A stretch of 64,000 nucleotides of DNA from the IMG/VR virus record IMGVR_UViG_3300048582_000084, positions 1-64,000 of that record. One strand, 5' to 3'. The number at the start of each line of letters is the position of its first letter. The first letter of the stretch is position 1. The DNA is from a virus. Below are positions 1 through 58,145 of the stretch, one piece after another. The notes under the pieces are model-generated. The model did no database searches. It was not told the origin of the DNA and saw only the letters and a list, made by a program, of their open reading frames with translations. The position numbers were made by a program, and so were the translations under genes.

Positions 1-78
1 CTCGCCCTCGCCCTCGCCCTCGCCCTCGCCCTCGCCCTCGCCCTCGCCCTCGCCCTCGCCCTCGCCCTCGCCCTCGCC
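1..78. repeat. CTCGCC hexamer tandem array
   Basis: Thirteen perfect head-to-tail copies of CTCGCC begin at the first base. They are followed by the palindrome TGGATATCCA (79-88). The array may continue to the left of the window, so its true length is unknown. It could be a genome-end feature or an assembly edge in low-complexity DNA. Confidence 0.95.
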
Positions 79-105
79 TGGATATCCAGCCAAGCTAGCC
101 CGGTT

Positions 106-22523: not shown

Positions 22524-25252
22524 TGCCTTACCTCCTCCGCGCGCAGCCTTACGATGAGGCTCTCCCAGGTATCCGAAGCCTATATTTCAGTGATGTGGGC
22601 TTCACTACCACTCCCGCAGAATCACCCGCGAACGTCTACTGGGACCGCCGTATTGAGGTTCCTTTGGTAGTTCAGCAGAGCCTATTCTCGGACAGTTCGG
22701 TCGGTGGTCGGAGCGAGATCAGCTTCGGTCGCATCAGTCTGGCTAACGATGACGGCGCTCTAAATGTTCTTGGAGATTACGACTGGGACGGTCGCCTCAT
22801 TGAGGTACTGTACACAGAAAAAGAACGGCCGGTTTATGCTGATTTCATTGCTGTTTTCAGCGGCACCGCCGAGCAGTTTCTTCTTGGTGATATCGTTGAG
22901 ATTGAGGTCCGAGACCTTCAAATTCTGTTTGAAGAGCCATTTCAGCCGAGCAAATTCCTTGGAACAGGCGGCGTCGAAGGCCCTACCGAGTACACCGGTC
23001 GCCGTAAACCTCACCTTCTCGGGACAAAAAGACAGTTCACGCCGTTGCCTCTTGATCCCGCAAATCTAGTGTGGTGCTACCACAGCGGTCCAGCAGGCGG
23101 CGTCCTGGGAGTTAAGGACTCTGGCGCCGATCTCCCCTATGCGGGCGACTACCCGAGCTACGCCGCGCTTATCGCTGCGTCCATCCCTGCTGGTCAATAT
23201 GCGACATGTAATGCTCTTGGACTTCTGCGTTTGAATGCTCCACCAATCGGCGTACTCACTATTGATGCTGAGGGTCAGCGCGAAAATCTTCTGATTTCTC
23301 CTTTCACGCTGACCCGCACTCAAGCGGGCGGCGCGTCTTCGACTGCATTGAACAGCGACGGTTTGACTTGGCGCGAGTATGTCGCCAACGCCGCGCGCAC
23401 GAACGGAACCGCACGCGGTCGCCTTCTTGAGGGCGAACGGACCAACGGTATCCGGAACATTCGGGCAGAGGGCACAGCGGGCGCACTTCCTACCAACTGG
23501 GCACGCGTCAACGCCGGATCGGGTGTTAATCCTACATATTCCGCGATTACAGCGAACGGTATGACAGGACTTCGAATCACATATGTCGGAACCACCGCAG
23601 GCGTTCCGGGTACGGAAACTATCGAGTTCGATGGGCGAACTCCCGGTATTTTCGCCGCGAACGCGGGGGTTCTTATCAACAGCTCGTTTTTCTACCGCCT
23701 ATCCAGTGGAGCCCTGCCTGTAGGCGCTCCGGTTGTACAGAATCGAATTGTTACCTTCAACAATGCTGGCACTGTTATCGCCGCTACTGGTCAAAATTTT
23801 ACGGCGTTGGATGGTGACATTCGCAGGACTTCCCACACCCACACCCCCGCCGCAGGCGTTGGAGTAAACGGTAGAGCTATCAGCGGTATTCACTTTGGGA
23901 CGTGGCCCGCGAGTACTGCTGTAAATTTTTCTATCGACGTTTTTTGGCCGCAACTTGAGACGGGGTGGTCTGCCTCGTCCCCAATTCTTCCGACAAGCGG
24001 CACTCCCGCTTCGGCTACTCGCGGTTCCGATATTGTTTCTGCTCCTTTGTCTTCCTTGGGTGTACCTTCGACGGGAACATGCACGGTTCTGTGGAGTGGC
24101 GTAATTCCACAACAATCCCCGACAGGTTTTGGTCAAAACCTAGTACAGCTTGAACAAACTGGCTCAGACGCCAACAGCTATAGGCTCCGCAACCCCGCTG
24201 CCAGCAACAGTATTGATTTGATGCGAGTCAACGCAGGCGTTGTTAGCAGCATCTCTCTTGGCACGATGACTCCGGGCACGGCGTTTAGAGCGGGTTTCGT
24301 TATCAACGGTTCTGGCCGAATGGCTGGAAGTTTCAACGGCGGCGCGGTTCAAGCCGTGACTGGAGGCGTGACGACAGGCCTGACGGACATGCGGGTTGGA
24401 AACATTGTCAGCGGACTACAACCGCTGTTCGGTGATGTTGCTGTGTTCCGTGTGCTTCCATACGCCCTATCAGACGCGGACCTCCAAACCGCAGTTGCGG
24501 CCCTGCCCGTCGTTAATGGGACGCTGAAAACTTTTGCCGATATCGCCCAGCACAGTATTCTTCGCTCTGTCCCTCTGACCCTCGCAGATTTCAACCCGAC
24601 GACTGTAAGTGCGCTGAACACTAGCTGTTCGCAAGGCCTAGGTTACTGGTACGGTGGAGATTCCGAAGAACCACTACGTGGTGTACTGGACACACTCGCG
24701 TCGAGTGTGGGCGTTTATTACGGGTTTGACGAGTCGAGGAAGATTTTCTTCGGACGGTTCGAGGCTCCAGCCGTCACGCCTGACTATGTGTTTAGTGAGC
24801 GAGACATTTACGACCTTCAACCTATCCCAGCGGATCGCCGCCTCAAGACTCAGATCGTAGCGTGGGGAGAGCGCGTCAGGCCTCTGGAAGATCAAGAGAT
24901 TGCCGGTACCATTACTGGAACCTCACGAACCGCTTTGATGGAGAAGTGGCGGCTTGAGACCCATACAAGTTCTTCTGTCGCGACAGCTTCCCTACTCGCG
25001 CGCGAAGAACGCATTGATAGCTCCTTCGACGTCCTTGCGGATGCTCAGAACGAAGCGCAGCGCCGTGTTGCGCTCTTTGGTCCACGCCGTCAGGCGTTCA
25101 CCGTGGAGGTCCCATTCACGCCGAACCTGCGACCAGGGCATACTGTCGAACTTCAAGACAGTCGCCTCATCGGTGTGGCTAAGCGCTTTCGGGTTCTTAA
25201 GATCGAGCGAGACGCGTCCGAGCAGAGAGTTACAATGGAAGTTTGGGGATGA
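22523..25252 (+). CDS. Tail hub/tip protein with inserted lectin-like module
   Basis: A 909-aa protein. The flanks (1-250 and 663-909) read as one tail tip or hub protein: YFSDVGFTTTPAESPANVYWDRRI at the start; TFADIAQHSILRSVPLTLADFNP and FTPNLRPGHTVELQDSRL at the end. Between them (about 258-662; 23294-24508) lies a separate Ser/Thr/Gly-rich beta module with GRLLEGERTNGIRNIRAEG, FFYRLSSGA, FWPQLETGWSASSPILPTSG and a concanavalin-like second half. The same module occurs alone at 26860-28119. The insertion would place a receptor- or sugar-binding domain on the tail tip. Confidence 0.75.
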   Translation: MPYLLRAQPYDEALPGIRSLYFSDVGFTTTPAESPANVYWDRRIEVPLVVQQSLFSDSSVGGRSEISFGRISLANDDGALNVLGDYDWDGRLIEVLYTEKERPVYADFIAVFSGTAEQFLLGDIVEIEVRDLQILFEEPFQPSKFLGTGGVEGPTEYTGRRKPHLLGTKRQFTPLPLDPANLVWCYHSGPAGGVLGVKDSGADLPYAGDYPSYAALIAASIPAGQYATCNALGLLRLNAPPIGVLTIDAEGQRENLLISPFTLTRTQAGGASSTALNSDGLTWREYVANAARTNGTARGRLLEGERTNGIRNIRAEGTAGALPTNWARVNAGSGVNPTYSAITANGMTGLRITYVGTTAGVPGTETIEFDGRTPGIFAANAGVLINSSFFYRLSSGALPVGAPVVQNRIVTFNNAGTVIAATGQNFTALDGDIRRTSHTHTPAAGVGVNGRAISGIHFGTWPASTAVNFSIDVFWPQLETGWSASSPILPTSGTPASATRGSDIVSAPLSSLGVPSTGTCTVLWSGVIPQQSPTGFGQNLVQLEQTGSDANSYRLRNPAASNSIDLMRVNAGVVSSISLGTMTPGTAFRAGFVINGSGRMAGSFNGGAVQAVTGGVTTGLTDMRVGNIVSGLQPLFGDVAVFRVLPYALSDADLQTAVAALPVVNGTLKTFADIAQHSILRSVPLTLADFNPTTVSALNTSCSQGLGYWYGGDSEEPLRGVLDTLASSVGVYYGFDESRKIFFGRFEAPAVTPDYVFSERDIYDLQPIPADRRLKTQIVAWGERVRPLEDQEIAGTITGTSRTALMEKWRLETHTSSSVATASLLAREERIDSSFDVLADAQNEAQRRVALFGPRRQAFTVEVPFTPNLRPGHTVELQDSRLIGVAKRFRVLKIERDASEQRVTMEVWG

Positions 25253-28124: not shown

Positions 28125-28661
28125 ATGCAGTACACTTACTACCGTTGGGCTGATCGTTCTTCCTGGCTCGCCGCCGCAGATTCCGCTGGTTGGGACCTCG
28201 ATCACTCGGGGTCTCCGCTAGTTGAGGGTGTAGAAGCCATCGCAGGGCTCGCTCCTTCACCCGAAGGCGAGCCCTCTGACACGCGTTGGCATCTCGTTCT
28301 AGCGACGTCTTCCGAGCTACCGGAAGCCATCACCTCGGCTGAGCAGCCTACCACTGACGCGCCATTCTGGTGGTCTGGTGTCCCTCGCGAAGTGGCGGCT
28401 CCGGTCTCTCTGGCGCTTCCAGACCTAACGGCTAGACAGCTACGCCTCGGCCTTCTTCTGGTTCTCGGGATGACTGCCGCCGACGTTGAGTCCCTAATCG
28501 AGAGCATCCCAGATGCCACGCAGCGTCAGGTCGCCCACATCGAGTGGGAGTACGCTACGACCTACGTTCGGACGCACCCCCTCATTACTACCATTTCGTC
28601 TGCTCTAGGGCTGACAGACGCTCAGATTGATTCGGCTTGGGTATACTCCGCTTCGCTGTAA
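28125..28661 (+). CDS. Tail fibre-associated/assembly protein
   Basis: A 178-aa protein. The N-terminal half is aromatic and acidic (YTYYRWADRSSWLAAADSAGW). The C-terminal half has the pattern ARQLRLGLLLVLGMTAADVESLI, then IEWEYATTYVRTHPLI and LGLTDAQIDSAWVYSASL. This pattern is common to small proteins encoded at the end of phage fibre operons, where they act as fibre assembly factors or tip proteins. It is the last gene of the rightward arm, followed by a terminator. Confidence 0.6.
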   Translation: MQYTYYRWADRSSWLAAADSAGWDLDHSGSPLVEGVEAIAGLAPSPEGEPSDTRWHLVLATSSELPEAITSAEQPTTDAPFWWSGVPREVAAPVSLALPDLTARQLRLGLLLVLGMTAADVESLIESIPDATQRQVAHIEWEYATTYVRTHPLITTISSALGLTDAQIDSAWVYSASL

Positions 28662-28696
28662 CCATCTGATAAATCTACAAACTCAATCTCGTTCAG

Positions 28697-28729
28697 CCGC
28701 ACGATCTATGGTCGTGCGGTTTTCTTTTT
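28697..28729 (+). terminator. Terminator of the structural operon
   Basis: CCGCACGA, loop TCTATGG, TCGTGCGG, then TTTTCTTTTT. Ends rightward transcription before the attachment region. Confidence 0.95.
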
Positions 28730-28785
28730 GACAATAAAGAGTGAAATAAAAGCCCGACATACTAAGTATAGTGTCAGTCTGATCG

Positions 28786-28795
28786 AAAGTACTTT
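28786..28795. promoter_or_regulatory. AAAGTACTTT site near attP
   Basis: In non-coding DNA between the operon terminator and the att core (GATCGAAAGTACTTTATATG). A partial match, AAAGCACT, lies 25 bp further on. Confidence 0.5.
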
Positions 28796-28832
28796 ATATG
28801 TAGCGCGAAGTAAAAAGCACTCAATAACGGTT

Positions 28833-28876
28833 TTGGTAAGGGAGAGGTCGAGAGTTCAATCCTCTCCAGCAGCACC
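28833..28876 (+). other. attP core: 3' half of tRNA-Thr(GGU)
   Basis: A 44-bp segment reads as the distal half of a tRNA: anticodon loop TTGGTAA with anticodon GGT, stem arm GGGAG, variable loop, T-arm GAGAG-TTCAATC-CTCTC, acceptor strand CAGCAGC, discriminator A and CC. No 5' half is present (the upstream sequence is unrelated), so it is not a functional tRNA gene. Tyrosine integrases commonly recombine at tRNA 3' ends, and the integrase gene ends 94 bp away. The core would restore the host tRNA after integration. The rest of the 28662-28969 gap holds only repeats. Confidence 0.85.
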
Positions 28877-28920
28877 TCGGAACCCTTTGAAAAACCTCGG
28901 TTTTCTCAGCGGCTCCAATC

Positions 28921-28942
28921 CGGGTTTATCGTGCAAAACCCG
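28921..28942. repeat. Inverted repeat between attP core and integrase
   Basis: CGGGTTT, 8-nt spacer, AAACCCG. No U-tract follows on the minus strand, so it is a weak terminator candidate for the integrase or a protein-binding site. Confidence 0.5.
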
Positions 28943-28959
28943 ATATTCAGGTACAAGTA

Positions 28960-28978
28960 TAGAACGCAGCTAGAACGC
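28960..28978. repeat. Direct repeats, possible integrase arm sites
   Basis: TAGAACGC occurs at 28960-28967 and 28971-28978, with an 11-bp period (one helical turn). The second copy overlaps the integrase stop codon. Position near the att core suits arm-type sites. Confidence 0.4.
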
Positions 28979-30031
28979 TACAGCACGCATCGCGCCCGCC
29001 ACGAACTCCGGGGAGTGGTGTCCATAGACGCGCTCCACTACGTCCTTCGATGTGCTGGTGAATTTGGCGATTTCTTCGAAGGTCATCCCGGCCTGAACCA
29101 TCCACGTAATCGCGGTATGTTTCAGCACATGCGCGCTGATGACCTCGATACCCGCCCGCTCGCACGCAGCCCTTAAAGCGACTTTAACGTCCTTGATCGG
29201 TTCCCCTCGGAACTCGATGACAAAAGACGTCTTCGCGCGCTCCTTGGCCGATTTGAGCGCCTCGATCAGCCTGACGTTTCCAGCGATGGGCGTCCTGCCC
29301 CGCCGCTTGTTCCCGACGTCGTCACCAAAATCGAGCGATTCATGTCCTGGGCGGCTCAGGTCCACGGATGACCAAGGCAGTGTCAAAATCGCCTCGCGGC
29401 GCTTGGCGCTCGTCAGTCCGATGAGAATGAACAGGGCGAGGTGCGGAGGTGCCGCCAGCATGAGGCGGTTCGCTTCTTCCTTCGTGATCCAGCGCGCTCG
29501 GCTTGCGCCTGCGGATAGTTCCACCCGGAAGGTCACCTCTCGCTCGATCATATGCTCCGACCACGCCCAATTCAGCGCAGCCCGTAGCGACCGAAGCTCC
29601 TTGCTGACGGTTGCCTCGCCCACCGGCTGGTCACCGTAGCGCCCGCCCTTCCGGATCACAGGCTCTTCAAGGCGATCTTCAACGTAGTCGTTGACGACGG
29701 TCTGCGTGATGCTGTCCGCGTAGAGCGCTCCAAGATGGCGCTTGAGGGGCGCGTAGCAGTACGGAAGCTGGCCAGGGCGCGCGACGGTCGGCGTTCGATA
29801 CGTCACATAGGCATCGCATAGCTCTGCCACAGTAGGGCGAGCGGCAAGCTTCGGCTTTCTGTAGTCCTGCGCGAACCGTGTGCGTTGTGCTTCGGCTTCC
29901 TTGGGGTCTTTGGTGCCCGTCGCCTTGTCGCGCGTCTTCCCGGTCTCGGGGTCTGTGTAGCGAATGACGTAGTAACCATCATCGCGCTTCGTTAGATTGA
30001 AATTTGGGGACTGAAGTTTGGTCCTGGGCAT
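28970..30031 (-). CDS. int: Tyrosine recombinase (integrase)
   Basis: A 353-aa protein. The N-terminal AP2-like/arm-binding part (FNLTKRDDGYYVIRYTDPETGK) and the core-binding SAM-like part are followed by the catalytic domain (about 180-353). Arg211 (SAKRREAIL), a beta-hairpin with basic residues (NKRRGRTP), His301 and the nucleophile Tyr336 (RVYGHH) are visible. The second catalytic Arg is Lys304 here (HVLKHT instead of HxLRHT), which is unusual. It would integrate the phage at a tRNA-Thr gene. It is the first leftward-strand gene next to attP, preceded by AAGGAG and a terminator of the upstream operon. Confidence 0.9.
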   Translation of the reverse strand: MPRTKLQSPNFNLTKRDDGYYVIRYTDPETGKTRDKATGTKDPKEAEAQRTRFAQDYRKPKLAARPTVAELCDAYVTYRTPTVARPGQLPYCYAPLKRHLGALYADSITQTVVNDYVEDRLEEPVIRKGGRYGDQPVGEATVSKELRSLRAALNWAWSEHMIEREVTFRVELSAGASRARWITKEEANRLMLAAPPHLALFILIGLTSAKRREAILTLPWSSVDLSRPGHESLDFGDDVGNKRRGRTPIAGNVRLIEALKSAKERAKTSFVIEFRGEPIKDVKVALRAACERAGIEVISAHVLKHTAITWMVQAGMTFEEIAKFTSTSKDVVERVYGHHSPEFVAGAMRAVAF

Positions 30032-30079: not shown

Positions 30080-30265
30080 TTAATCTACGAGCTTGCGAAG
30101 CATAATTCCGCCGTCTGCGGTAACGACGCAGAGAAACTCGTCGCCTTCCTTTGCACCGACGATATCGGTGATGATTTCGGGTAGAGGAAAGATTTCCCTA
30201 CCCTTCTCGTCTTTCTCGACGGTCAGCCGAGTTCGGAAGTTGTAAGCTAGGCTCCAATGACTCAT
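30080..30265 (-). CDS. AbrB/MazE-like small DNA-binding protein (putative)
   Basis: A 61-aa protein. The pattern RTRLTVEKDEKGREIFPLPEII, then VGAKEGDEFLCVVTADGGIMLRKL is that of the SpoVT/AbrB swapped-hairpin fold, used by transition-state regulators and antitoxins. The start overlaps the dUTPase stop (TAATG), so the two are coupled. No toxin gene is adjacent. Since no other regulator is evident near the integrase, it is a candidate for control of lysogeny or early genes, but this is speculative. Confidence 0.5.
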   Translation of the reverse strand: MSHWSLAYNFRTRLTVEKDEKGREIFPLPEIITDIVGAKEGDEFLCVVTADGGIMLRKLVD

Positions 30266-47916: not shown

Positions 47917-50028
47917 TCAGTGGCAATCAGCCCAGTTCAGGCCGACCTTGAATTCACAATCAAGAGGACAAAGGAATTCGAAATGCTTCTCGACTTCCTT
48001 GATTGCCTCTTTAACTGCTGTTCCGATTCGGCGGATTTCCGGCGACTTCCCCCAGAACCAGTCCTGAAGATGCTTGGCCTTGTGCGCCTTGATCTTCTTT
48101 TCATCTTCCCAGGTCGAGTAGTCGGTATCGTTCTTATATTCACACAACATGTTGTATGTCGATTCCGCGCGCACCGCTATTTGTAGCTCGTCGTGGAAAT
48201 AGCCAAGGATCGCGAAGTCGCCGTCCCAGCCGTGTTTCCATCCCGTGCCGAGAAGCTTCTCCTCCAAAAGAACGGACCACTTCTTAGCCACCAACGCGCC
48301 TGCCGATTGAAGGGACGTATTGAGGGCCTTGTGTTCACTGCGAACGTGCAGTCGCCCGCCGTCGAGGGCTGGAATCCAGCCGTTTCGGGTGACCTGTTTG
48401 TTGAGGCGTTTGACCACTTCGCCGTATGCAGGAACCGCCTTCATGAAATTCTTCTTGATGCGTCTTCCGGCCTCGGAACCTTGGTCGATGATACTACCTA
48501 GCTTGGCGTCCCCCGCGCCGTATAATAGGGCGTACAGCGTAGTTTTTGCGTTGTCCCGTGTAGGGACGCCGAAAGCTTTCTGGTTCTCGCTGTGAACGTC
48601 GCCCTCGATGACAATGCGGGCGTACTCGCCGCCATCGAATTCGGCCAGGACGTCCGCGAAGCACCTAATCTCGATACCCGACAAGTCGGTTCCGAATTGC
48701 AGCCAGCCCTTAGGAACATGCCACAGCTTCCGCATCTCGACGCCGTAGGGCGACCGCACAGCGGGGCACTGAGACATGTTAGGCTTGGCGTGCGTGACGC
48801 GGCGGGTGACTGCGCCTAGGCCGTTTACGGACCCATGGACCTTGCCGTCTCTGACGAGTTTCAGCCAGCCGTTCTTGCCCTCGGCAAGCTGACCAATACG
48901 CTTCTGAACGAGGAAGTAGTCCGCGAGGTACTTGGCCTCAGGAACCGTCGTGACGAGCTTGTCGTAGAGTTCCTGTTCGGACTCTTCGATGCCGTCTTCG
49001 TCTTCGTCCAGCTCGCCCACAAGGTCGCGTAGAACGTCCTCGCTGACTTTGGGCTTGCCGGTGTCGGTGAACTGTTTCGGCTTCCAACCGTAGCCCCGTT
49101 GCAGGCGGTCAGCGATTTGATCGCGGCTGCCTGGATTGAATTCTTCCAGCTTGACAGGACAGAAGGGTGCGCCCGCTGTGCGTGAGGCCTTCAGCGGGTC
49201 CTTGTAGTTGAGCGTTTTCTGTGGGGTGATGGTACTAGCTTCACGCCACGCCATAGGGCGGTCTCGATTGTCCTTCTCCCACTTTTCAGCCTTCCACCAG
49301 GGGCGGAACTGAGAAAGTAGGAAGCCTTCGATCTGTGCTTTCTCTTCGCTGAGTCGGGCGTAGAGCGCCTTCGCCTCTTCCTCGTTGAAGGGGAAGCCGT
49401 TGTGTTCGATCTTCGTCAGAAGATTGGCGAACTGATGCTCCAGCCGAATTGCTTCCTGGCTGTAGTTCATTCGTGCAATCTGGCGTTCGACATACCGCCA
49501 CAGCTCGACGTTCACGACGACGTCCTGGCGGGCGTAGGTCTCCATCTCAGGAGTCCAAACCGCCCAGTCCTCGATGCCGCCTTCTCCGAATTCGGCCTTG
49601 TGTACGCCGATGCGGTAGCCCCAAGCCTTGAGCGAGTGCATGCCGATCAGTTTGCCGGGGAGCGAACCCTTCCGGAACTTGACGAAGTCGTCGTCCTTGA
49701 TGTCGGAGAACAGTAGCCGCGTCAGGATCAATGTGTCGCGGATTAGTCCGGACACTTCAAACCAAGGGTACAAGTCCTCAAGCGTGGGGATATCATAGCC
49801 GATCAAATTGTGCCCTACCAACAGATCAGCACTCATTAGCAAGCGAAGGCCGTCTTCGATCCAACCGTCGCATGGGGCTACTTCGGCGGCTCGGTGTAAT
49901 TGAACGTCTGCCCTATTTCGAAAGACCATCTCTTTATCTGAGTCAATGTCACGGACGATAAGGAGGTGAACCTTGGTAACACTTCTCCGCAGCCCGTCCG
50001 CTTCAATATCCCATGTTAGGCGCTTCAT
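47917..50028 (-). CDS. DNA polymerase I family (family A)
   Basis: A 703-aa protein. The N-terminal 3'-5' exonuclease has LTWDIEADGL and LVGHNLIGYDIPTL. The polymerase domain has GAVTRRVTHAKPNMSQCPA, FGTDLSGIEIRCFADVLAEF (motif A), RDNAKTTLYALLYGAGDAKLG (motif B) and ILGYFHDELQIAV (motif C, HDE). The T7-like layout lacks a 5'-3' exonuclease. It is the only polymerase in the window. An HNH-AP2 endonuclease gene lies directly upstream. Confidence 0.96.
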   Translation of the reverse strand: MKRLTWDIEADGLRRSVTKVHLLIVRDIDSDKEMVFRNRADVQLHRAAEVAPCDGWIEDGLRLLMSADLLVGHNLIGYDIPTLEDLYPWFEVSGLIRDTLILTRLLFSDIKDDDFVKFRKGSLPGKLIGMHSLKAWGYRIGVHKAEFGEGGIEDWAVWTPEMETYARQDVVVNVELWRYVERQIARMNYSQEAIRLEHQFANLLTKIEHNGFPFNEEEAKALYARLSEEKAQIEGFLLSQFRPWWKAEKWEKDNRDRPMAWREASTITPQKTLNYKDPLKASRTAGAPFCPVKLEEFNPGSRDQIADRLQRGYGWKPKQFTDTGKPKVSEDVLRDLVGELDEDEDGIEESEQELYDKLVTTVPEAKYLADYFLVQKRIGQLAEGKNGWLKLVRDGKVHGSVNGLGAVTRRVTHAKPNMSQCPAVRSPYGVEMRKLWHVPKGWLQFGTDLSGIEIRCFADVLAEFDGGEYARIVIEGDVHSENQKAFGVPTRDNAKTTLYALLYGAGDAKLGSIIDQGSEAGRRIKKNFMKAVPAYGEVVKRLNKQVTRNGWIPALDGGRLHVRSEHKALNTSLQSAGALVAKKWSVLLEEKLLGTGWKHGWDGDFAILGYFHDELQIAVRAESTYNMLCEYKNDTDYSTWEDEKKIKAHKAKHLQDWFWGKSPEIRRIGTAVKEAIKEVEKHFEFLCPLDCEFKVGLNWADCH

Positions 50029-50030
50029 TT

Positions 50031-50582
50031 TTACTTATTAACCCCAGTGTATTTGGCGAATGCTCCGTGATGCGTGATTGCCGCTTCTGCGTATGCTGCG
50101 GCAGCCTCTTCGGCACTATCGAAATGGCCTAGGAAGCGCTGTTTACCGCCGTGATATATGCAGGCTCGCCATTTGTCCCGTTCAGCGCGAAAAGTTACAC
50201 CCTTAATTCCGCTCTTCGAATCTTTGTGATGGCGCCTATTATGTATGTTCTGAGTCCGTGAGGCTTCGCGCAGATTAGACGGCCTGTTGTTGGTGGGATT
50301 GCCGTCGATATGGTCGATTTCATCCGCTGGCCATCTGCCGTTCTCAAGAGCGAAAACTATTCGGTGTGCAAGGTGGTGGACGCCGCTTATACTAACGATG
50401 ACGAACCCGTGTGTTTTATCTTTGTGCCCCGCTACTTGTCCCGCGAAGCGTGTATTCCATGTCTTTACGTGCCTACTATGTCCCGACCTTATTTTCCAAA
50501 TCAGAGTCCCAGTTGTTTTATCTAGGTCCAGCCTCGTTCTTATGTAGGCGATAGCTTGTGGTGTTTCGTCTTTCTTTGGCAT
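50031..50582 (-). CDS. HNH endonuclease with AP2 domain
   Basis: 183 aa from ATG 50582. HLAHRIVFALENGRWPADEIDHIDGNPTNNRPSNLREAS is the HNH_3 motif (split here as DHIDGN...N...NLREA). SGIKGVTFRAERDKWRACIYHGGKQRFLG is an AP2 DNA-binding domain. This pairing is typical of phage homing endonucleases. It ends two bases before the polymerase start and begins right after a hairpin U-tract, with no clear ribosome site. Confidence 0.92.
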   Translation of the reverse strand: MPKKDETPQAIAYIRTRLDLDKTTGTLIWKIRSGHSRHVKTWNTRFAGQVAGHKDKTHGFVIVSISGVHHLAHRIVFALENGRWPADEIDHIDGNPTNNRPSNLREASRTQNIHNRRHHKDSKSGIKGVTFRAERDKWRACIYHGGKQRFLGHFDSAEEAAAAYAEAAITHHGAFAKYTGVNK

Positions 50583-50583
50583 T

Positions 50584-50608
50584 AAAAGGAGACCCAAAGG
50601 TCTCCTTT
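50584..50608 (-). terminator. Terminator (minus) abutting HNH-AP2 start
   Basis: AAAGGAGACC-TTTG-GGTCTCCTTT then TAATG; the endonuclease ATG follows directly. Confidence 0.85.
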
Positions 50609-50612
50609 ATAG

Positions 50613-51134
50613 TCACTGCGCCGCAGAGGGAACGACGGACACGATGACCGGCTCAACGCGCAGACGAATCGGCTGAGTCGAGTAGAAGTAAGCACCAGAC
50701 CACTGCCGATACTCACCGTTGGTGTTCCAGTAGTAGATGTACGGGTTAGACGAGCCGTAAGTCCCCTCGTCAGAGGGCGCCTGCCGGGTCACGTACTGCG
50801 TACCGTTACCGGTACTGTGGCCGGTCACCCGATCTGGCTGAGTCAGGCGCTTGCTACCCGACGTCACCTTGCCACGGACGCCCTCGTACATGATGGGAGC
50901 GCCAGCCTCATTGAAGAGGACGATGAAGCCGAGCAGGTTCGGATTGGCTGTCAGTTCCAGCCGCCTGCGGACGTTGTCGATTTCCGCATTGTCGGTGAAG
51001 GAGATTGAGTTGGCAGCCTGTTGCGCCGCCTGCGCCTGCCGGTCGCGCGCGGTCGGTGCTGGGGCCTCCGGAACGCACGCCGAGAGGGCGAACATCAGCG
51101 GAGCGGCGAGCAGTAGAACGATGAGCTTCTTCAT
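50613..51134 (-). CDS. Phage lipoprotein
   Basis: A 173-aa protein. Signal peptide with lipobox LSAC (Cys about 20), then a Pro/Ala/Gln linker. The body has NAEIDNVRRRLELTANPNLLGFIVLFNEAGAPIMYEGVRGKVTSGSKRLTQP, a pattern shared by lipoproteins of several phages. It would sit in the outer or inner membrane facing the periplasm, a common place for superinfection-exclusion proteins. Followed by a membrane protein operon. Confidence 0.75.
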   Translation of the reverse strand: MKKLIVLLLAAPLMFALSACVPEAPAPTARDRQAQAAQQAANSISFTDNAEIDNVRRRLELTANPNLLGFIVLFNEAGAPIMYEGVRGKVTSGSKRLTQPDRVTGHSTGNGTQYVTRQAPSDEGTYGSSNPYIYYWNTNGEYRQWSGAYFYSTQPIRLRVEPVIVSVVPSAAQ

Positions 51135-51140
51135 GGGGGC

Positions 51141-51539
51141 TTACTCACAGAGTTGGGCGTCGAGTTCGACCGGGGCGGTTTGCCCCCGGAAGATCGCGCG
51201 GTTGGTCATGGTGGAACGAGCGTTGTAGGTCTGCGCCAGATCGCGACAGGCCTGTTGAACGGCAGCCATCTCGATACGGAGACGGCGCTTCTCAGCGTCG
51301 TTGGTCTCACTGCTTAGGAAGCCCTTGAATTGGGCGACCTGACGCGTGCGGGTCTGGAACGTGCCGTTCGCTTGGTGGAACCATTCGTAGTTGGTGATGA
51401 TGTTGTCGGTCTCCAGCGTGCGCTGAATGACTCGACCGGGCGCCGTAGCGACGGATGAGAACGTCCCCGCCATGTTGAGCGCGATAACCAGGGCGACCAG
51501 GGCGAGAATCCCACCCAGTGCCCATCCGATGATCTTCAT
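51141..51539 (-). CDS. Membrane-anchored conserved phage protein
   Basis: A 132-aa protein with an N-terminal TM helix (3-27, IIGWALGGILALVALVIALNMAG). It continues as DNIITNYEWFHQANGTFQTRTRQVAQF and RLRIEMAAVQQACRDLAQTYNARS, a recurring motif in membrane proteins paired with the lipoprotein above in other phages. Function unknown; likely envelope-associated with its partner. Confidence 0.65.
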   Translation of the reverse strand: MKIIGWALGGILALVALVIALNMAGTFSSVATAPGRVIQRTLETDNIITNYEWFHQANGTFQTRTRQVAQFKGFLSSETNDAEKRRLRIEMAAVQQACRDLAQTYNARSTMTNRAIFRGQTAPVELDAQLCE

Positions 51540-51573
51540 TAAGTATTCAATCTCCGTAGTTGAGTTGTTGACG

Positions 51574-51598
51574 AAAAGGAACCGCCTAAGCGGTTCCT
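51574..51598 (-). terminator. Terminator (minus)
   Basis: AGGAACCGC, loop TTAG, GCGGTTCCT then TTTTC. Confidence 0.85.
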
Positions 51599-51821
51599 AA
51601 TCCCGCTTCGCCCGAATGATCGTGAAGTTGAGTCGAGACAGGTTGATGTTGCCGTCCAGCCAGACTACCAGCCCGGCGATCCATACAATCACCAGCACGC
51701 CGAGCAAGGTGGAGAGCTTAATATCCATCCCGTCAGAGAGCATGCGGCGGATCGTGGCTACGACACCGAAGACCCACATGCAGAGAATCAAGATCAAGAC
51801 TAAAGTGCCAAGGATGGTCAT
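51597..51821 (-). CDS. Small two-TM membrane protein
   Basis: A 74-aa protein with TM helices at about 3-23 and 36-54 (TLVLILILCMWVFGVVATI; LGVLVIVWIAGLVVWL), a short basic C-terminus and AAGGAAAAG before the ATG. Unknown function; near the lipoprotein operon. Confidence 0.5.
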   Translation of the reverse strand: MTILGTLVLILILCMWVFGVVATIRRMLSDGMDIKLSTLLGVLVIVWIAGLVVWLDGNINLSRLNFTIIRAKRD

Positions 51822-51846
51822 TTCTTTTCCTTATTTTGTGTGTGTG

Positions 51847-51871
51847 AAAAGGAACCGCTTTCGCGATTCCT
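51847..51871 (-). terminator. Terminator (minus)
   Basis: AGGAATCGC, loop GAAA, GCGGTTCCT then TTTTC. Confidence 0.8.
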
Positions 51872-51876
51872 AATCA

Positions 51877-53271
51877 TTACATACGGTTCGACCGCGCGCG
51901 GATATCCGCGAACGTCTGGTCATTGAGTGCGGTGCCGTTCCCGAACACCGGGTCCAGTACGTCATCCAAGTCTAGGATATCGCCCCCAAACTTATCGACA
52001 GTTGTGTACTCGCCGGTCCACCTGTCGCGGACGAGCGCTAGTCTGCCCGTCTTCGACCGCTTGCCGGGGTCTGTGACCGGGTCCTTCTGCACGTCGCGCC
52101 ATTGTCCGTTCGCACGGATGGCGCTGCACTTCATCGCGAACTTCTGCGTGTCACGGTTGATGCCCTGTAGAAGAGCGCCACCCATGCCGAACGCGATGTT
52201 GTCGGCAGAGAATCCAGTCTTGGTCAGCTCTTGTAGAATCGAGGTAATCGAATCCGCATTGATGCCGTCGCCCTGGATGACACGGACGTTGTTCAGGACG
52301 TGGTAGCCCTTACTGTTCGTTGTGTACCCAAACTTCGACGCGAGACGCGCCACCGCCACGACGGGTGTCAGCACGGGATCGCCGCTGTCAGGCCGGATCA
52401 CGACCGTGGCGCCGCTATTGACGACGTCCTCGCGGAGCTTGTCGCCCCAGAGATTGTCGATAGCGTTCCAGAGGTCGTAGGAGTCGCTCACCACAGCGAC
52501 GAGGCTTCCAGGCTTGGCGAACTTCCAGAGCATGTTTCTGTACGCATGCTCTTCGTTACTCCTACCCCACGAAGTGATCGTGGAGTGTTCCGAAGCAGGG
52601 ATCGAGAACCCCGCCATGCCAGCCTTGTAGAAGCGGTTGGCAGCGAGAACACCCTCGACGGTGTCGGAGCCCATGAAGTTGACGAGGTGAGCAGCACCAC
52701 CAATGGCCGCGCTCTCTGCACTCGACACACCCCTCGCGCCGAAGTCGTGAAGCTTGAACGGGAGCTGTCCCTCAGGATCGTCCGACGTCTCTGTTAGTGT
52801 CTTCCGGATGATCTGCTTGATATGCCAGGACTGCGTCGCGACCGTCGTCGGATACCAGACCGCTCGCAGGAGCGCCGTCTCAAGATACGACGTCAGCCAG
52901 AAGCACTTCGGGTCCGTGTTAACGACGGTCGCCAGCACGTTCTTCGTCGGGACCACCAAGCCTTCCGGCACCGCGCGAATCAGCACGGGCAGGAATCCGT
53001 CGTGGGCCTTGACGATGTAGTCCCAACCTTCGCGGTTGAACGGAAGACCATGCGCCTGGAAAAAGGTTTCGGCTTCGTCCACGTCCTTGGCGGAAATGGG
53101 CTTCAGCAGGTATCGCTTGATGAACATCTGAAGACCGAAGAACAGGGTACGGTCGTGGGCGCCGCCGCGAGACTCGATATACGAGTAGACGTACTCGGTG
53201 CCGGGCGGGTACTGGACGAAGTGGGAGGACTTATAAGAGTCCACCATCAGAAGAATGTTGTCGTTGTACAT
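51877..53271 (-). CDS. nadV: Nicotinamide phosphoribosyltransferase (NAMPT/NadV)
   Basis: A 464-aa protein. ILLMVDSYKSSHFVQYPPGTEYVYSYIESRGG opens the family. KLHDFGARGVSSAESAAIGGAAHLVNF and TVVIRPDSGDP carry the catalytic and PRPP-binding residues, and AFGMGGALLQGINRDTQKFAMKCSAI completes the core. It makes NMN from nicotinamide and PRPP. With the NadM-Nudix protein (54093-55160) it forms a two-step NAD salvage route that can restore NAD emptied by host defences. Confidence 0.93.
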   Translation of the reverse strand: MYNDNILLMVDSYKSSHFVQYPPGTEYVYSYIESRGGAHDRTLFFGLQMFIKRYLLKPISAKDVDEAETFFQAHGLPFNREGWDYIVKAHDGFLPVLIRAVPEGLVVPTKNVLATVVNTDPKCFWLTSYLETALLRAVWYPTTVATQSWHIKQIIRKTLTETSDDPEGQLPFKLHDFGARGVSSAESAAIGGAAHLVNFMGSDTVEGVLAANRFYKAGMAGFSIPASEHSTITSWGRSNEEHAYRNMLWKFAKPGSLVAVVSDSYDLWNAIDNLWGDKLREDVVNSGATVVIRPDSGDPVLTPVVAVARLASKFGYTTNSKGYHVLNNVRVIQGDGINADSITSILQELTKTGFSADNIAFGMGGALLQGINRDTQKFAMKCSAIRANGQWRDVQKDPVTDPGKRSKTGRLALVRDRWTGEYTTVDKFGGDILDLDDVLDPVFGNGTALNDQTFADIRARSNRM

Positions 53272-53374
53272 TGTGGATAAGAACTCCTCTATCCGGTTAT
53301 GAGTCCCGTCTTTCGAGGACCCAAAAAACAGCGGAAGAGTACTTCGATACCATAAATTATGTTACAATAATTGT

Positions 53375-54157
53375 ATGATTACAAAATACGGATTTATCTA
53401 CATCACTACTAATACGGCTAATGGTAAGCAGTACATAGGCAAGCGTTCGTACATGAAAAACGGGTGGGAGCGTTATCTCGGCTCAGGGAAGCTTCTGCTT
53501 CGGGCAATTCGAAAGTACGGGAGGACGTCATTCAGCCGGGAAATTATCTACGAGTCCTTCTCCAAAGAAGACTTAGATGCCGCCGAAAGGTCGGTCATCC
53601 GCAGTCTCAGCGCTGTTGAATCAGAGGCGTTCTATAATCTCTCTCCCGGTGGGAGTGGGACATCGTTTGGGTTTATGGGTAAGAAGCATAGTGCCGATAC
53701 TAGGGCTCGGATGTGCGCTTCAGCCAGGAAGGAAAACTCCAGACGGCAGATTACCGATAAACTTCGGAAGGCCACATCGGAGAATGGTAAAAATTCTATT
53801 GGAAAGCTTATCGCATATCGTAGAAGTATTGGCTATCAGACCGGTGCGGAACACCCAAGGAGTATACCAGTCACCGTCGATGGTGTTCTGTACAACTCAG
53901 TGTCTGCGGCCAAAGAAGCAGGGTATCGCTACAAAGACATCAAAGCACTTATCGCGGGGGAAGTTAGCGAGATCGACACTAGTACAAAAGGGCGCGGCCC
54001 AGCGAAGGCAGCGCACCTATTTGGCGTACATTATCAATCAATAGCAGCAGCCTGCCGAGCGCTGGGGCTGACGCGCAGAGAAGTTAAGGCTCTCACAGAG
54101 AACGCCACATACACATCAGAATATCTTGGTGGTCCTCAAACATCATCGACCGCTTGA
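53375..54157 (+). CDS. GIY-YIG homing endonuclease
   Basis: A 260-aa protein on the opposite strand to all its neighbours. GFIYITTNTANGKQYIGKRSY and the conserved Arg helix (WERYLGSGKLLLRAIRKYGRTSF) give the GIY-YIG core. NLSPGGSG and the NUMOD-like repeats (TVDGVLYNSVSAAKEAGYRY; AHLFGVHYQSIAAACRALGLTRREV) are DNA-binding modules. It is inserted between the two NAD genes and its end overlaps the NadM-Nudix 3' end by 65 bp. TTACAAT lies upstream as a weak promoter. Confidence 0.93.
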   Translation: MITKYGFIYITTNTANGKQYIGKRSYMKNGWERYLGSGKLLLRAIRKYGRTSFSREIIYESFSKEDLDAAERSVIRSLSAVESEAFYNLSPGGSGTSFGFMGKKHSADTRARMCASARKENSRRQITDKLRKATSENGKNSIGKLIAYRRSIGYQTGAEHPRSIPVTVDGVLYNSVSAAKEAGYRYKDIKALIAGEVSEIDTSTKGRGPAKAAHLFGVHYQSIAAACRALGLTRREVKALTENATYTSEYLGGPQTSSTA

Positions 54158-55160
54158 CGTGGTTGATGTGCCACCACTGCGCCTTACTTGCGTCGCTGGA
54201 CGCCTTGACCGCTGGCAGTCCATCGCCGTGCGGCGGTAGGTGGATCAGCGAGGCATGTGTGATCGTGCGACCGCGTAGCGACCGACCTGGGTCATCGAAG
54301 ACTTTGGTGGTTACGACGTTTCCGCGAAGTACGGCTTCGGGAACCTTGAGACGCGTCTCTTCGCGAAGCTCGCGGATCGTCGCATCGAGGATGCGCTCGC
54401 CTTGGTCTAGGAAGCCCCCAGGAAGCGCCCAGAGACCCCTGCCCGGCTCAGCCCGGCGCTCGACCAGTAGGATGTGACTGGACTGCACCACGACCGCGTC
54501 CACCGTCACGAAGGTTGGTGGGTATGGGGCGGATGCCCAAGACGCTCGGTACTTATCGATGAAGGCCTTCTCGGCTTCAAGCTGCTCCCGTGCCGGTGTC
54601 CAGTAGAAGCTGCCATCAGCTTCAACGTCCGTGCTGAGGAACTTCTGGACGCCTACCGGGAGGTAGTCCCACAGCCCCGCGCTGTTCCATTTGGACGAGA
54701 AGTAGGCGTTGCGGAAATCAGTCGCGCTGATGGGCTTGCCCTTCTGCGTGTGCTGTCCGGCCTCCACGAACTTCCATTGAGGAAACATTCGCACATGGGA
54801 TGCGCCTGCATCCTTGTCGTGACCGACATGGATGACGGTAGGGAGGTGTTCGGAATCCGCGCTGAGGATGATGTCGTCAACCGCAGCGACTACCGCCGCT
54901 TCCCAGGCACCGTCGTTGTAGACGGAATCCTCAATAGGAACGAAGGTGACGTGCTTGTTTTCGAAATCGGTCAGGCAGGCGCGAATCATGGTCTCGCGCT
55001 CTTCATGCGTAAACGGGTTCTTGACAGTTCGCGGGCCGAAGCTGGACCCGAGAATGACGATAACGTGGGAAGCCAACGATAGCGCCTGAGTTAGGACGTG
55101 AAAGTGGCCAAGATGAAAGGGCTGAAAACGCCCAATGTAAACTGCATAGTCTGCTCGCAT
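54093..55160 (-). CDS. nadM: NadM-Nudix bifunctional enzyme
   Basis: A 355-aa protein. The N-terminal NMN adenylyltransferase has VYIGRFQPFHLGHFHVLTQAL and FTHEERETMIRACL; KGKPISATDFRNAYF is the second nucleotide site. The C-terminal Nudix domain has GGFLDQGERILDATIRELREET. It converts NMN to NAD and may hydrolyse ADP-ribose or NAD breakdown products. Together with NAMPT it forms the pathway reported as NARP2-type NAD reconstitution against Thoeris-like defences. Confidence 0.93.
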   Translation of the reverse strand: MRADYAVYIGRFQPFHLGHFHVLTQALSLASHVIVILGSSFGPRTVKNPFTHEERETMIRACLTDFENKHVTFVPIEDSVYNDGAWEAAVVAAVDDIILSADSEHLPTVIHVGHDKDAGASHVRMFPQWKFVEAGQHTQKGKPISATDFRNAYFSSKWNSAGLWDYLPVGVQKFLSTDVEADGSFYWTPAREQLEAEKAFIDKYRASWASAPYPPTFVTVDAVVVQSSHILLVERRAEPGRGLWALPGGFLDQGERILDATIRELREETRLKVPEAVLRGNVVTTKVFDDPGRSLRGRTITHASLIHLPPHGDGLPAVKASSDASKAQWWHINHVKRSMMFEDHQDILMCMWRSL

Positions 55161-55210
55161 AGCAATACTCCATTGCTTAGTTTGGCGACCGCCCGTCTAT
55201 CGTGACGGTC

Positions 55211-55235
55211 AAAAGGAGACCGGAAGGTCTCCTTT
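55211..55235 (-). terminator. Terminator (minus)
   Basis: AAAGGAGACC-TTCC-GGTCTCCTTT then TGACC; strong 10-bp stem, short U-tract. Confidence 0.75.
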
Positions 55236-55237
55236 AT

Positions 55238-56125
55238 TTACCGATACTTACTCAGCAGCCCGTCGATATCTCGGACCAACTGATCTATCGACGGGTCGCG
55301 CTGAACTACGACCGCCATCGAGCCGTAGTAGTTCTCAAGGCAGTCGAGAAGTAAGGCCTTGAGCGCGCGTTCGTTTGCCTGCTCCGGAAGTTTGGATTCG
55401 GCGTACTGCTTCTCCAAAGAATGCTCCTTCTCAGTGAAGTAGCGCTCCAAATCTTCGAACTTCCAGTCACCACGTCGGATCGACTTTAGCTGCTCGCGGT
55501 TGCGTTCGATGTCGAGGTCGCCCTCGACGAGGATTTGCTCGACCTCGTTCAAGAGTCGTACAGTGTGGTAGGCATACTTCAGATCGTAGCCGTGTTCTGC
55601 AATCGACTCTGCGCGGGCTGGATTAAGCGACGCGGTCTTGTCCCTAATCTTGCCCATCTGCCCGTAGGCATAGCCCTTGAACTTCGGCCAGCAGCCTTTA
55701 TGCAAGAACTCGCGGCGGCGTTCACGGACCATCTCCGCAACCGGTGTCGTGTGAAGGACACAGCGGCGTGGCGTGAACAGGCTGTTTAGCATGTTCGGAT
55801 TATTGTCCATGCAAAGCTGAAAGTACTTTACGATGGAGAAGACCGCGAAGTCGTAGGTCTGGTCCTTGCCGTCCGGATTCTTGATGTGGTGATGTTGCCA
55901 CTGTTCGAATCGCTTGGGCTGTTCTCCGAAGCCTGGAATGACGCCCTGTAGGTGGGGGAAGATGTCCTCCTTGGGAGGAACGCAGAATCCGTAGATATCC
56001 ATGTCGGACGTGTCGGCCGAGACGCCGTAAGCGTTGCTGCCCATCATCGTCAGGTATGCTGTCTGGCCTGGGAGCCACTTCGGTGGGTGGGCGGCTCCAG
56101 CAGCCACCAGTTTGTCGAGGATCAT
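55238..56125 (-). CDS. RlaP-type nucleotidyltransferase
   Basis: 295 aa from ATG 56125; the frame is open further upstream without a better start. YLTMMGSNAYGVSADTSDMDIYGFCVPP has the GS...DxD nucleotidyltransferase motif of the PF10127 family, found next to RNA ligases and proposed to act in RNA repair. Later YDFAVFSIVKYFQLCMDNNPNMLNSLF and YAYHTVRLLNEVEQILVEG match the family. AAAGTACTTT is inside the gene (55822). It probably adds or trims nucleotides at RNA ends. Confidence 0.8.
   Translation of the reverse strand: MILDKLVAAGAAHPPKWLPGQTAYLTMMGSNAYGVSADTSDMDIYGFCVPPKEDIFPHLQGVIPGFGEQPKRFEQWQHHHIKNPDGKDQTYDFAVFSIVKYFQLCMDNNPNMLNSLFTPRRCVLHTTPVAEMVRERRREFLHKGCWPKFKGYAYGQMGKIRDKTASLNPARAESIAEHGYDLKYAYHTVRLLNEVEQILVEGDLDIERNREQLKSIRRGDWKFEDLERYFTEKEHSLEKQYAESKLPEQANERALKALLLDCLENYYGSMAVVVQRDPSIDQLVRDIDGLLSKYR
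55822..55831. promoter_or_regulatory. AAAGTACTTT site inside RlaP gene
   Basis: Coding copy, context GCTGAAAGTACTTTACGATGG, similar to the one at 46633. Confidence 0.4.
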
Positions 56126-56145
56126 TTTCTTTAGCCCTGTTGTGC

Positions 56146-56179
56146 AAAAAAGAGGGCAACCCAAACTGGATTGCCCTCT
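56146..56179 (-). terminator. Terminator (minus)
   Basis: GAGGGCAA, loop, TTGCCCTC then TTTTTT. Ends transcription of the genes upstream, ahead of RlaP. Confidence 0.9.
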
Positions 56180-56186
56180 CAACCCG

Positions 56187-56384
56187 TCACAACCGGTCGC
56201 GGATAGCGCGCAGTAGCCTCGCCAACACGCGAGAGTCGATGATCGTCTTGTAGTCGTTGTGCTTGTGCGCCGTACTCACCAGATCGTCGTAGTGACCGGC
56301 TTTGACCGCCTGGATGAGGCGAGTCTCTTCCCAGCGGCGTGTCTCTTCTTCTGCGGCTTCGCGCTGGTCGTCGTAGTGCCCCAT
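56187..56384 (-). CDS. Small helical hypothetical protein
   Basis: 65 aa from ATG 56384 in a TGATG overlap with the Nudix gene. HYDDQREAAEEETRRWEETRLIQAVKAGHYDDLV contains two HYDD segments. Highly charged; no family is recognised. Confidence 0.5.
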   Translation of the reverse strand: MGHYDDQREAAEEETRRWEETRLIQAVKAGHYDDLVSTAHKHNDYKTIIDSRVLARLLRAIRDRL

Positions 56385-56848
56385 CAGCACGCACCTCGCG
56401 CGTCGATAGCCTTGAACCCATACTCGATCAGGACTGGAATATCGGTCTCGCTGAGAGTCAGGCTCATGGGGAGCAACCAGCGAAGGTTGGGCATCAGGTC
56501 GAGGTCCGGACGAACCAGTACATCGCCGTCGAAGATGCGAACTTCTTCACTCTCGGGAGAACGAACTTCATCGAGGATCGATGGCGGGAGAATGGTGACG
56601 AAGCAGTCGATCTCAAATCCAGCCTGTTTGTCCCGTAGAATAGCGAACTTCTGCCATACGGTGTGGAAAATCGACACACCGGTCTCTTCGCGGAACTCGC
56701 GAGCCATTGCGGCATGAGGGTCCTCGCCCGGTTCGATCTTACCGCCGACGCCGTTCCATTTCCCTGCCATCCAATCAGGACGGTCTTTCTTAATTAGGGT
56801 CACACGAATGTCGTAATCGAAGGCAAAACCTAGTACATAGTGTTGCAT
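56384..56848 (-). CDS. Nudix hydrolase (MutT-like)
   Basis: A 154-aa protein. Nudix box GVGGKIEPGEDPHAAMAREFREETG at about 35-59; front GFAFDYDIRVTLIKKDRPDWMAGKWN. It cleaves nucleoside diphosphate-linked compounds such as 8-oxo-dGTP, NADH or ADP-ribose; the substrate cannot be told. Its leader is an AAAGGACTTT site. Confidence 0.9.
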   Translation of the reverse strand: MQHYVLGFAFDYDIRVTLIKKDRPDWMAGKWNGVGGKIEPGEDPHAAMAREFREETGVSIFHTVWQKFAILRDKQAGFEIDCFVTILPPSILDEVRSPESEEVRIFDGDVLVRPDLDLMPNLRWLLPMSLTLSETDIPVLIEYGFKAIDARGAC

Positions 56849-56850
56849 CT

Positions 56851-56860
56851 AAAGTCCTTT
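56851..56860 (-). promoter_or_regulatory. AAAGGACTTT leader of the Nudix gene
   Basis: Minus strand TTAAAGGACTTTAG then ATG (56848). AAAGGA acts as the ribosome site. Same arrangement as at 40676 and 14753. Confidence 0.55.
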
Positions 56861-56870
56861 AAGTTTGTAG

Positions 56871-56894
56871 AAAGGGAGGCCCGAAGGCCTCCCT
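56871..56894 (-). terminator. Terminator (minus), UUCG loop
   Basis: AGGGAGGCC-TTCG-GGCCTCCCT then TTC. The stem equals that at 45407-45430. Confidence 0.85.
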
Positions 56895-56901
56895 CAGTCA
56901 A

Positions 56902-58086
56902 TCACCAGCGCGAAAGCTGCCAGCGCTTGCTACCAGATACGATGTGGACATTCACGACGCGTGCGCCGTCTTCCCAAACGTCAGCAGTTTCGAAGAATTC
57001 ATCCTCGTCAGGCTGGCAGTCTGCGGCCCACTCGACTGTGACAGTCTCAGTCATGAGGTCCCCATCTTCATCAAGCCACCGGATTTGACCCGTCCAGTCT
57101 GCCACTTCCTCCATGCAGGAGGCCTTGAAATCCTCAATGGCTTCCTCAAGGTCCTCCAGACAGGTCGCGTATTCCTGATCTTCACCATCGACGGTGAAGT
57201 GGGCGACCCACTCGTCGTCGTAATCAAGGGCGAAACGCACGACGACGCCGTGGATATCTCGGATCACGTCCGTCTCATCTGCCTCCAGAGTACCTCCGGA
57301 GGTGAGGTCGGACTCGGCACGCGGCGCGAAGTTCGCTTCGCTCATGACAGCCGACGAGAAGATCGTAGCCACATCGGCCGGGGCGACCTCACCGATCACG
57401 CGGTAACCCGCGCAGCGCATCTTCGCGTTGTTGTAGTCGCGAGGAATGGCGACCACATCGGCAGGATCGACCTCAACGATGACCACGCGGTCGCCGTTGG
57501 AGTAGCTACCAAAGTGCGGCAGATACGACGCCGAGCAGACGTGCAAGCCGTGCGAACAGGTCTGGTCAGGGTTCTCGTCCACCTGATTGCGCGGGATGCG
57601 GAGCGTCTGCCCCACCGCGTTCAGCATGGTGCCGCTGTGAATGTCGTAGTAATCCTTCCGGACCTTCTTGTAGGCAAGGAACTTACCATCCGGCGTGATC
57701 GGAATGTTGGTAGCCTCAAGGAAGTCGTAGAGGCCCGTCACCGCACGGTTAGACGGGTTGTTCATCAGGCGCTCAAGGAAGTTGGTGAGCGGGCTGATAT
57801 CGAAGCCCTCGGACAGCATGCTGAGCATGCGACGCGACAGCGTCGAGTGTAGCGGCTTTCCGTCGAAGAAGACGGTGTCGTTGGTGATCGTCACCCGACC
57901 GGCGCTCTTGGTCTGGATCGCCTGCGGAATGTCGAACATCTTGGCGAGCTTGGCCTTGTCGGCGGCGCCAGCCTTCAGGTAGTCCTTGATATCCGCGAAG
58001 TTCGGGTGCGAAGTCTTGGCAACGTAGGTCTTGCCGTCAACGATGACGGTGATCGAGGCGCTGCCGATGATAAACGGAACAGTCAT
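56902..58086 (-). CDS. rIIB-like protein
   Basis: 394 aa from the ATG with CGGAGA before it. FIIGSASITVIVDGKTYVAKTSHPNFADI, then SRRMLSMLSEGFDISPLTNFLERLMNNPS and GLYDFLEATNIPITPDGKFLAYKKVRKDYYDIHSGT and HGLHVCSASYLPHFG are features of T4 rIIB-family proteins. The C-terminal 130 residues are very acidic. With rIIA it affects lysis timing and resistance to exclusion systems in T4; the mechanism is not known. Confidence 0.8.
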   Translation of the reverse strand: MTVPFIIGSASITVIVDGKTYVAKTSHPNFADIKDYLKAGAADKAKLAKMFDIPQAIQTKSAGRVTITNDTVFFDGKPLHSTLSRRMLSMLSEGFDISPLTNFLERLMNNPSNRAVTGLYDFLEATNIPITPDGKFLAYKKVRKDYYDIHSGTMLNAVGQTLRIPRNQVDENPDQTCSHGLHVCSASYLPHFGSYSNGDRVVIVEVDPADVVAIPRDYNNAKMRCAGYRVIGEVAPADVATIFSSAVMSEANFAPRAESDLTSGGTLEADETDVIRDIHGVVVRFALDYDDEWVAHFTVDGEDQEYATCLEDLEEAIEDFKASCMEEVADWTGQIRWLDEDGDLMTETVTVEWAADCQPDEDEFFETADVWEDGARVVNVHIVSGSKRWQLSRW

Positions 58087-58116
58087 TTTATTCTCCGTAA
58101 TAGGGGGTTTGGGAGT

Positions 58117-58138
58117 GGGGAGAGACACGGCTCTCCCC
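58117..58138 (-). other. Hairpin between rIIA and rIIB
   Basis: GGGGAGAG, loop, CTCTCCCC without a U-tract; may stabilise or attenuate the rIIA-rIIB mRNA. Confidence 0.55.
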
Positions 58139-58145
58139 ACCAAGA

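Follow-up and report, generated by a model that had tools for sequence, protein, structure and literature searches.

The 44 bp at positions 28833-28876 of the window, as we call the whole 64,000-nt stretch of viral DNA under analysis, very probably (we estimate about 95%) constitute the attP core of a temperate tailed phage. The adjacent integrase (28970-30031) is predicted to recombine this core with the 3' half of the tRNA-Thr(GGU) gene of a Roseomonas-type member of the Acetobacteraceae, or of a close alphaproteobacterium, with the strand crossover within the anticodon loop or immediately 3' of it. The 3' half carried by the phage would then restore a base-paired tRNA at the integrase-side end, and the displaced host 3' half would mark the opposite end of the prophage. 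tRNA-type attP sites are textbook knowledge, and the site in the window is a further example of this well-known type. Direct support comes from the exact identity to tRNA genes, the single copy of the core, the joint arrangement of core and integrase that four relatives also show (the closest ones with conserved arms as well), and the prophage of a relative that ends at this site. From these observations we infer that the window phage itself integrates, at which point the strands would cross over, and where in the arms the integrase would bind. The region contains the following features:

28125..28661 (+), last gene of the late operon (ORF), left of the putative attP

28697..28729 (+), terminator-like hairpin followed by a T run, closing the late operon (inverted repeat 28697-28704/28712-28719), kept in the left arm of the prophage in the Roseomonas MAG G003

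28728..28832 (+), putative left attP arm with the conserved TTGACAATAAAG (28728-28739), homologous to the left end of the G003 prophage

28833..28876 (+), putative attP core, tRNA-Thr(GGU) 3' half from the anticodon loop to C75, exact match to 22 complete tRNA-Thr(GGT) genes

28833-28839 (+), anticodon loop TTGGTAA

28833..28849 (+), 17-bp putative crossover region (anticodon loop, 3' anticodon stem, variable loop), over which the core copies of the G003 prophage agree, differing at 6 positions beyond

28877..28969 (+), putative right attP arm with conserved blocks at 28883-28906, 28930-28943 and 28952-28965, homologous to the right arms of the G003 prophage and of an island in genome G068

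28970..30031 (-), tyrosine integrase, 353 aa (Pfam PF00589, 1.9e-08; PHROG 1 integrase, 6.1e-38)

30080..30265 (-), 61-aa ORF adjoining the integrase, candidate accessory or regulatory gene (no Pfam family; weak match to PHROG 661, of unknown function)

The 44 bases TTGGTAAGGGAGAGGTCGAGAGTTCAATCCTCTCCAGCAGCACC read on the plus strand from the anticodon loop through the 3' strand of the anticodon stem (GGGAG), the variable segment AGGTC and the T-arm (GAGAG/TTCAATC/CTCTC) into the acceptor strand CAGCAGC, the discriminator A and CC. ARAGORN and Rfam found no tRNA at 28833-28876, Rfam left the half unscored even at a permissive threshold, and a 5' half is absent upstream, just as the first-pass annotation of this DNA had claimed. 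The 44-mer is present once in the window, where shuffled sequences (n=100) lead one to expect none even with 3 mismatches, and once in the entire 81,136-bp virus record that holds the window (IMGVR_UViG_3300048582_000084); phage genes flank this sole copy on either side. With one core between phage genes, the earlier proposal of a free or circularised phage holds for the non-integrated form; its circularised part gained no support, as terminal repeats were searched for and none were found. The record starts with a tandem CTCGCC repeat (window 1-80), possibly an assembly end. The base 3' of the core is T in the window versus A in the related phages, prophage and island (28874-28879), so that integration would cost the encoded A of the CCA end. 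In a lysogen of the window phage, the tRNA-Thr gene would accordingly encode CCT instead of CCA.

We scanned one genome per species from 84,980 prokaryote species for the exact 44-mer. It was found in 25 places, all in Alphaproteobacteria, and 22 of these are complete tRNA-Thr(GGT) genes (ARAGORN) ending in exactly these bases; both the assignment of the segment to the 3' half of tRNA-Thr(GGU) and the alphaproteobacterial host group suggested at first sight were thus borne out. Roseomonas, Falsiroseomonas, Neoroseomonas and other Acetobacteraceae prevail among the matches, which extend to Beijerinckiaceae, Arenibaculum, other Rhizobiales and two sphingomonad MAGs. Among 299 sampled Acetobacteraceae genomes, 48 hold the 44-mer with at most one mismatch. 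The remaining three places, in Falsiroseomonas bella, Neoroseomonas nitratireducens and the Roseomonas MAG G003, are 3' halves only. In the first two, the half lies 39.6 kb and 20.2 kb, respectively, from a complete gene in the same orientation, a pattern that points to integrated elements. Together with a third pair of cores, 15.4 kb apart in G068, these direct repeats indicate that the site is in use. A related prophage, whose portal is 77% identical, narrows the host to the Acetobacteraceae (Roseomonas group), and the matches support a Roseomonas-type member of this family, or a close alphaproteobacterium, as the predicted host.

The core lies beyond the stop codon of the integrase gene, and the adjacency of the two noted earlier holds, although the distance is 93 nt rather than 94 bp. 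Among the catalytic residues expected of a tyrosine integrase (R, K, HxxR, H/W, Y), R211, K242, H301 and Y336 are present; HxxR is changed to HxxK and the His/Trp position is taken by Thr (R211-K242-H301-K304-T327-Y336). HxxK occurs in 22 of 104 relatives, all of which also possess Thr at the His/Trp position, and both residues are present in the window integrase as well as in the four relatives closest to it. Since members of this group sit integrated, the combination of HxxK and Thr is probably active.

While a single-protein search of viral contigs yielded only a 23% relative of the integrase, a profile search recovered close ones in G400 (IMGVR_UViG_3300043414_000781; 65% identical) and G401 (63%). 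In both, a tRNA-Thr 3' half that starts at the anticodon loop and lacks the 5' half is found ~0.1 and 0.5 kb past the integrase. The closest integrases in the 299-genome Acetobacteraceae sample are those of G003 (76%; a C-terminal fragment at a contig end) and G068 (68%). They adjoin complete tRNA-Thr(GGT) genes whose 3' ends face the integrase stop across gaps of 225 and 114 nt, which is the layout of the window. For the four closest integrases (63-76% identical), encoded by the phages G400 and G401, the G003 prophage and the G068 island, the gap to tRNA-Thr(GGU) or its 3' half thus measures about 0.1-0.5 kb in every case, in agreement with the proposed attP function. Eight further integrases (29-38% identical) likewise have tRNA-Thr(GGT) or its 3' half as a neighbour, and other relatives adjoin tRNA-Val or tRNA-Glu. 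The relatives beside tRNA-Thr(GGT) or its half indicate that the site preference belongs to the integrase group of the window phage.

An integrated relative of the window phage was found in one of 397 Acetobacteraceae genomes, the Roseomonas MAG G003; a class-wide sample of 385 alphaproteobacterial genomes contained portal relatives of 33-39% identity only. Contig C8 of G003 opens with a late-gene module colinear with window 1434-22523, whose proteins are 50-83% identical overall to those of the window phage (portal, 77%; major capsid, 72%). This module is followed by a left arm homologous to window 28690-28832 (107/136 aligned bases identical; z = 19 versus shuffles), the exact 44-bp core at 27611, and DNA of 70% GC. 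A 159-aa gene precedes the core at the position equivalent to that of the window gene 28125..28661; similarity between the two products was not found. At the end of contig C4, tRNA-Thr(GGT) is followed by a right arm with homology to window 28877-28990 (75/93 aligned bases identical; z = 8.5 versus shuffles) and by the 76% identical integrase. Split over these two contigs of the MAG are thus both ends that one would expect if a phage of this group had integrated at the predicted site. We searched the bin for the middle of this prophage via its DNA polymerase and did not find it. Falsiroseomonas oryziterrae (L030) served as the unoccupied site, and its flanks match both G003 flanks (upstream, 93 bp at 82%; downstream, 396 bp at 73%). 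Since the downstream match coincides with the beginning of another integrase gene (DUF6538 domain) at the same tRNA, it is weak proof that C4 and C8 adjoin. The two G003 core copies are identical for 17 bases and diverge at six positions from there on, with the T-stem of the regenerated tRNA remaining paired (CGGGG/CCCCG). This distribution of differences suggests a crossover in or just after the anticodon loop. The conserved blocks of the right arm are probable arm sites of the integrase.

In G068, a 15.4-kb island (C53:114532-130014) lies between two tRNA-Thr cores on one contig and encodes the 68% identical integrase, a VapE/DUF5906 protein, a resolvase and a DNA polymerase III alpha-like protein; this is a satellite-like element that has its att module in common with the window phage. 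Searching for the two items proposed in the first-pass annotation thus recovered both the complete bacterial tRNA-Thr(GGU) genes and relatives with the core at either end (G003 on two contigs, the G068 island on one). The two outcomes that it had set against its own reading, a lack of tRNA matches and an integrase acting elsewhere, did not appear when they were pursued at the sequence level. In several Roseomonas-type genomes (L050 10551-10988, L030 1817-3403, L009, L048), the place immediately downstream of tRNA-Thr(GGU), or of its 3' half, is taken by an integrase of a different kind (DUF6538-type), so that this site is a hot spot for unrelated elements.

Several findings count against an attP served by the adjacent integrase of a temperate phage: HxxK and Thr in this integrase (though integrated relatives have both too), a second recombinase in the record, the presence of the G003 prophage on two contigs, the T after the core, and the fact that no repressor or excisionase was recognised among the scanned proteins. 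One might instead regard the core as what decay has left of a tRNA gene carried by the phage, like those arrayed in CbK-like phages, with no relation to integration. CbK-related phages do bear many tRNA genes, the complete tRNA-Thr of DSS3_MAL1 has 42/44 of the bases, and the window phage holds a complete tRNA-Tyr. Yet the truncation falls exactly at the anticodon loop both here and in independent phages, near the integrase stop codon, the arms are conserved on both sides, and prophage ends fall on the core. We consider such decay extremely improbable and rejected it, because truncation at this same base, next to an integrase, recurs in independent phages.

A real attP might alternatively be served by the second tyrosine recombinase, encoded on the minus strand at record positions 76032-77051 (L034 14033-15052) and 65% conserved in G400. 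The phage does have two recombinases, and the Microcystis phage Mae-Yong1326-1 carries its core about 12 kb from its integrase, but the four closest relatives of the adjacent integrase all sit beside tRNA-Thr(GGT) or its 3' half. The second enzyme resembles recombinases of Streptomyces phage ZL12 and Arthrobacter phages, and a tRNA half was not found beside its gene, which makes its involvement very improbable. That the attP is a relic of a now virulent phage that has lost integration appears unlikely. Genes for rIIA/rIIB, NAD salvage, RNA repair and a T7-like polymerase are typical of virulent phages, and a repressor was not recognised among the scanned proteins; against this stand the intact integrase frame, catalytic Tyr, first Arg, core and arms, all conserved relative to kin at 63-76% protein identity, and the integration of the sister phage in G003.

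The record places the late module left of the attP and the early module right of it; the terminase is encoded beyond the window, elsewhere in the record. The early module in the window comprises genes for dUTPase, class II RNR, ThyX, RNA ligases, polynucleotide kinase, a T7-like DNA polymerase, NAD salvage, rIIA/rIIB and a helicase. Window 47917-60437 of this phage, which has temperate relatives, encodes rIIA/rIIB, nicotinamide phosphoribosyltransferase, an RlaP-type nucleotidyltransferase for RNA repair and NUDIX proteins. No repressor, immunity region or excisionase was recognised in the set of proteins that we scanned with Pfam or PHROGs. G400 (L250-L253, about 56-77 kb) has the early half and the attP/integrase region in common with the window, gene by gene, but no match to the window head genes, which may reflect modular exchange of the late half. 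G402 and G403 have the late half in common with the window.

The best isolate matches to portal and terminase are CbK-related phages, at about 34-41% identity: Mwe-JY26, Erythrobacter XM05, RcXuper, DSS3P8, Lacusarx and Caulobacter phages. The window phage has the homologous portal and terminase but not the genome of at least 130 kb or the many tRNA genes of this lineage (81 kb, few tRNAs), and its group would thus be a distant temperate relative of the CbK-like lineage rather than a member by size and tRNA content. Of the isolates, Microcystis phage Mwe-JY26 (PP438418) comes closest, with 41% identity in the portal, 40% in TerL and about 20 genes in common; it has two tyrosine recombinases, as the window phage does, but its integrase adjoins a complete tRNA-Tyr gene. 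Sphingobium phage Lacusarx (portal, 35%; TerL, 39%) also possesses two tyrosine recombinases; in contrast to the 81 kb of the window phage, it has 130 kb and 24 tRNA genes, and a test for lysogeny was negative (PMC5648845). Roseobacter phage DSS3P8 (portal, 37%; TerL, 35%) likewise combines an integrase with a tRNA-like candidate attP. The latter is a proposed site of 63 bp with 81% identity to tRNA-Met, and no prophage is known (PMC4961962), whereas the core of the window phage is exact and its sister phage is integrated. Tyrosine integrases that use tRNA genes as attP/attB with crossover at the anticodon loop form class A in the Islander scheme (PMC4383910, citing Williams 2002). Like members of this class, the window phage carries a tRNA 3' half from the anticodon loop on, adjoining its integrase, and a regenerated tRNA and a displaced fragment would mark its two ends once integrated; particular to the present case are the Acetobacteraceae tRNA-Thr(GGU), the HxxK and Thr integrase subfamily, and a crossover point that is inferred.

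The exact 44-bp core is also present at 22971-23014 of Microcystis phage Mae-Yong1326-1 (OP028995.1; 71.8% GC), published as a cyanophage (PMC9503304), where it does not belong to a complete tRNA gene. Similarity of this phage to the window phage is otherwise distant and at the protein level only (integrase, 26% identical). No cyanobacterial match to the exact 44-mer occurred in the 84,980 genomes, and the true host of Mae-Yong1326-1 may be an alphaproteobacterium living with the cyanobacterium in culture. The same tRNA-Thr half is present at 40/44 in Microcystis phages Mae-JY04 (PP395637.1 4001-4044), 17 nt from a tyrosine recombinase gene, and Mae-JY28 (PP438420.1 25030-25073). Since an exact match to the Mae-JY04 core was not found in 385 alphaproteobacterial genomes, we make the host claim for Mae-Yong1326-1 only.

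Taken together, an uncultivated phage group gains a precise site of integration and, in Roseomonas-type Acetobacteraceae, a host that can be tested; the core in Mae-Yong1326-1 makes its published cyanophage host doubtful. We lean towards the view that these phages form a temperate branch related to the CbK-like lineage, in which virulent-type genes (rIIA/rIIB, NAD salvage, RNA repair) would coexist with an integrase subfamily that targets tRNA-Thr(GGU) and has Lys in place of the second catalytic Arg, together with Thr where His/Trp is usual. In that lineage, lysogeny was suspected (DSS3P8) but not demonstrated (negative in Lacusarx); our analysis supplies a prophage from among its relatives, and the added value lies in this evidence of lysogeny in a distant relative of the CbK-like phages.
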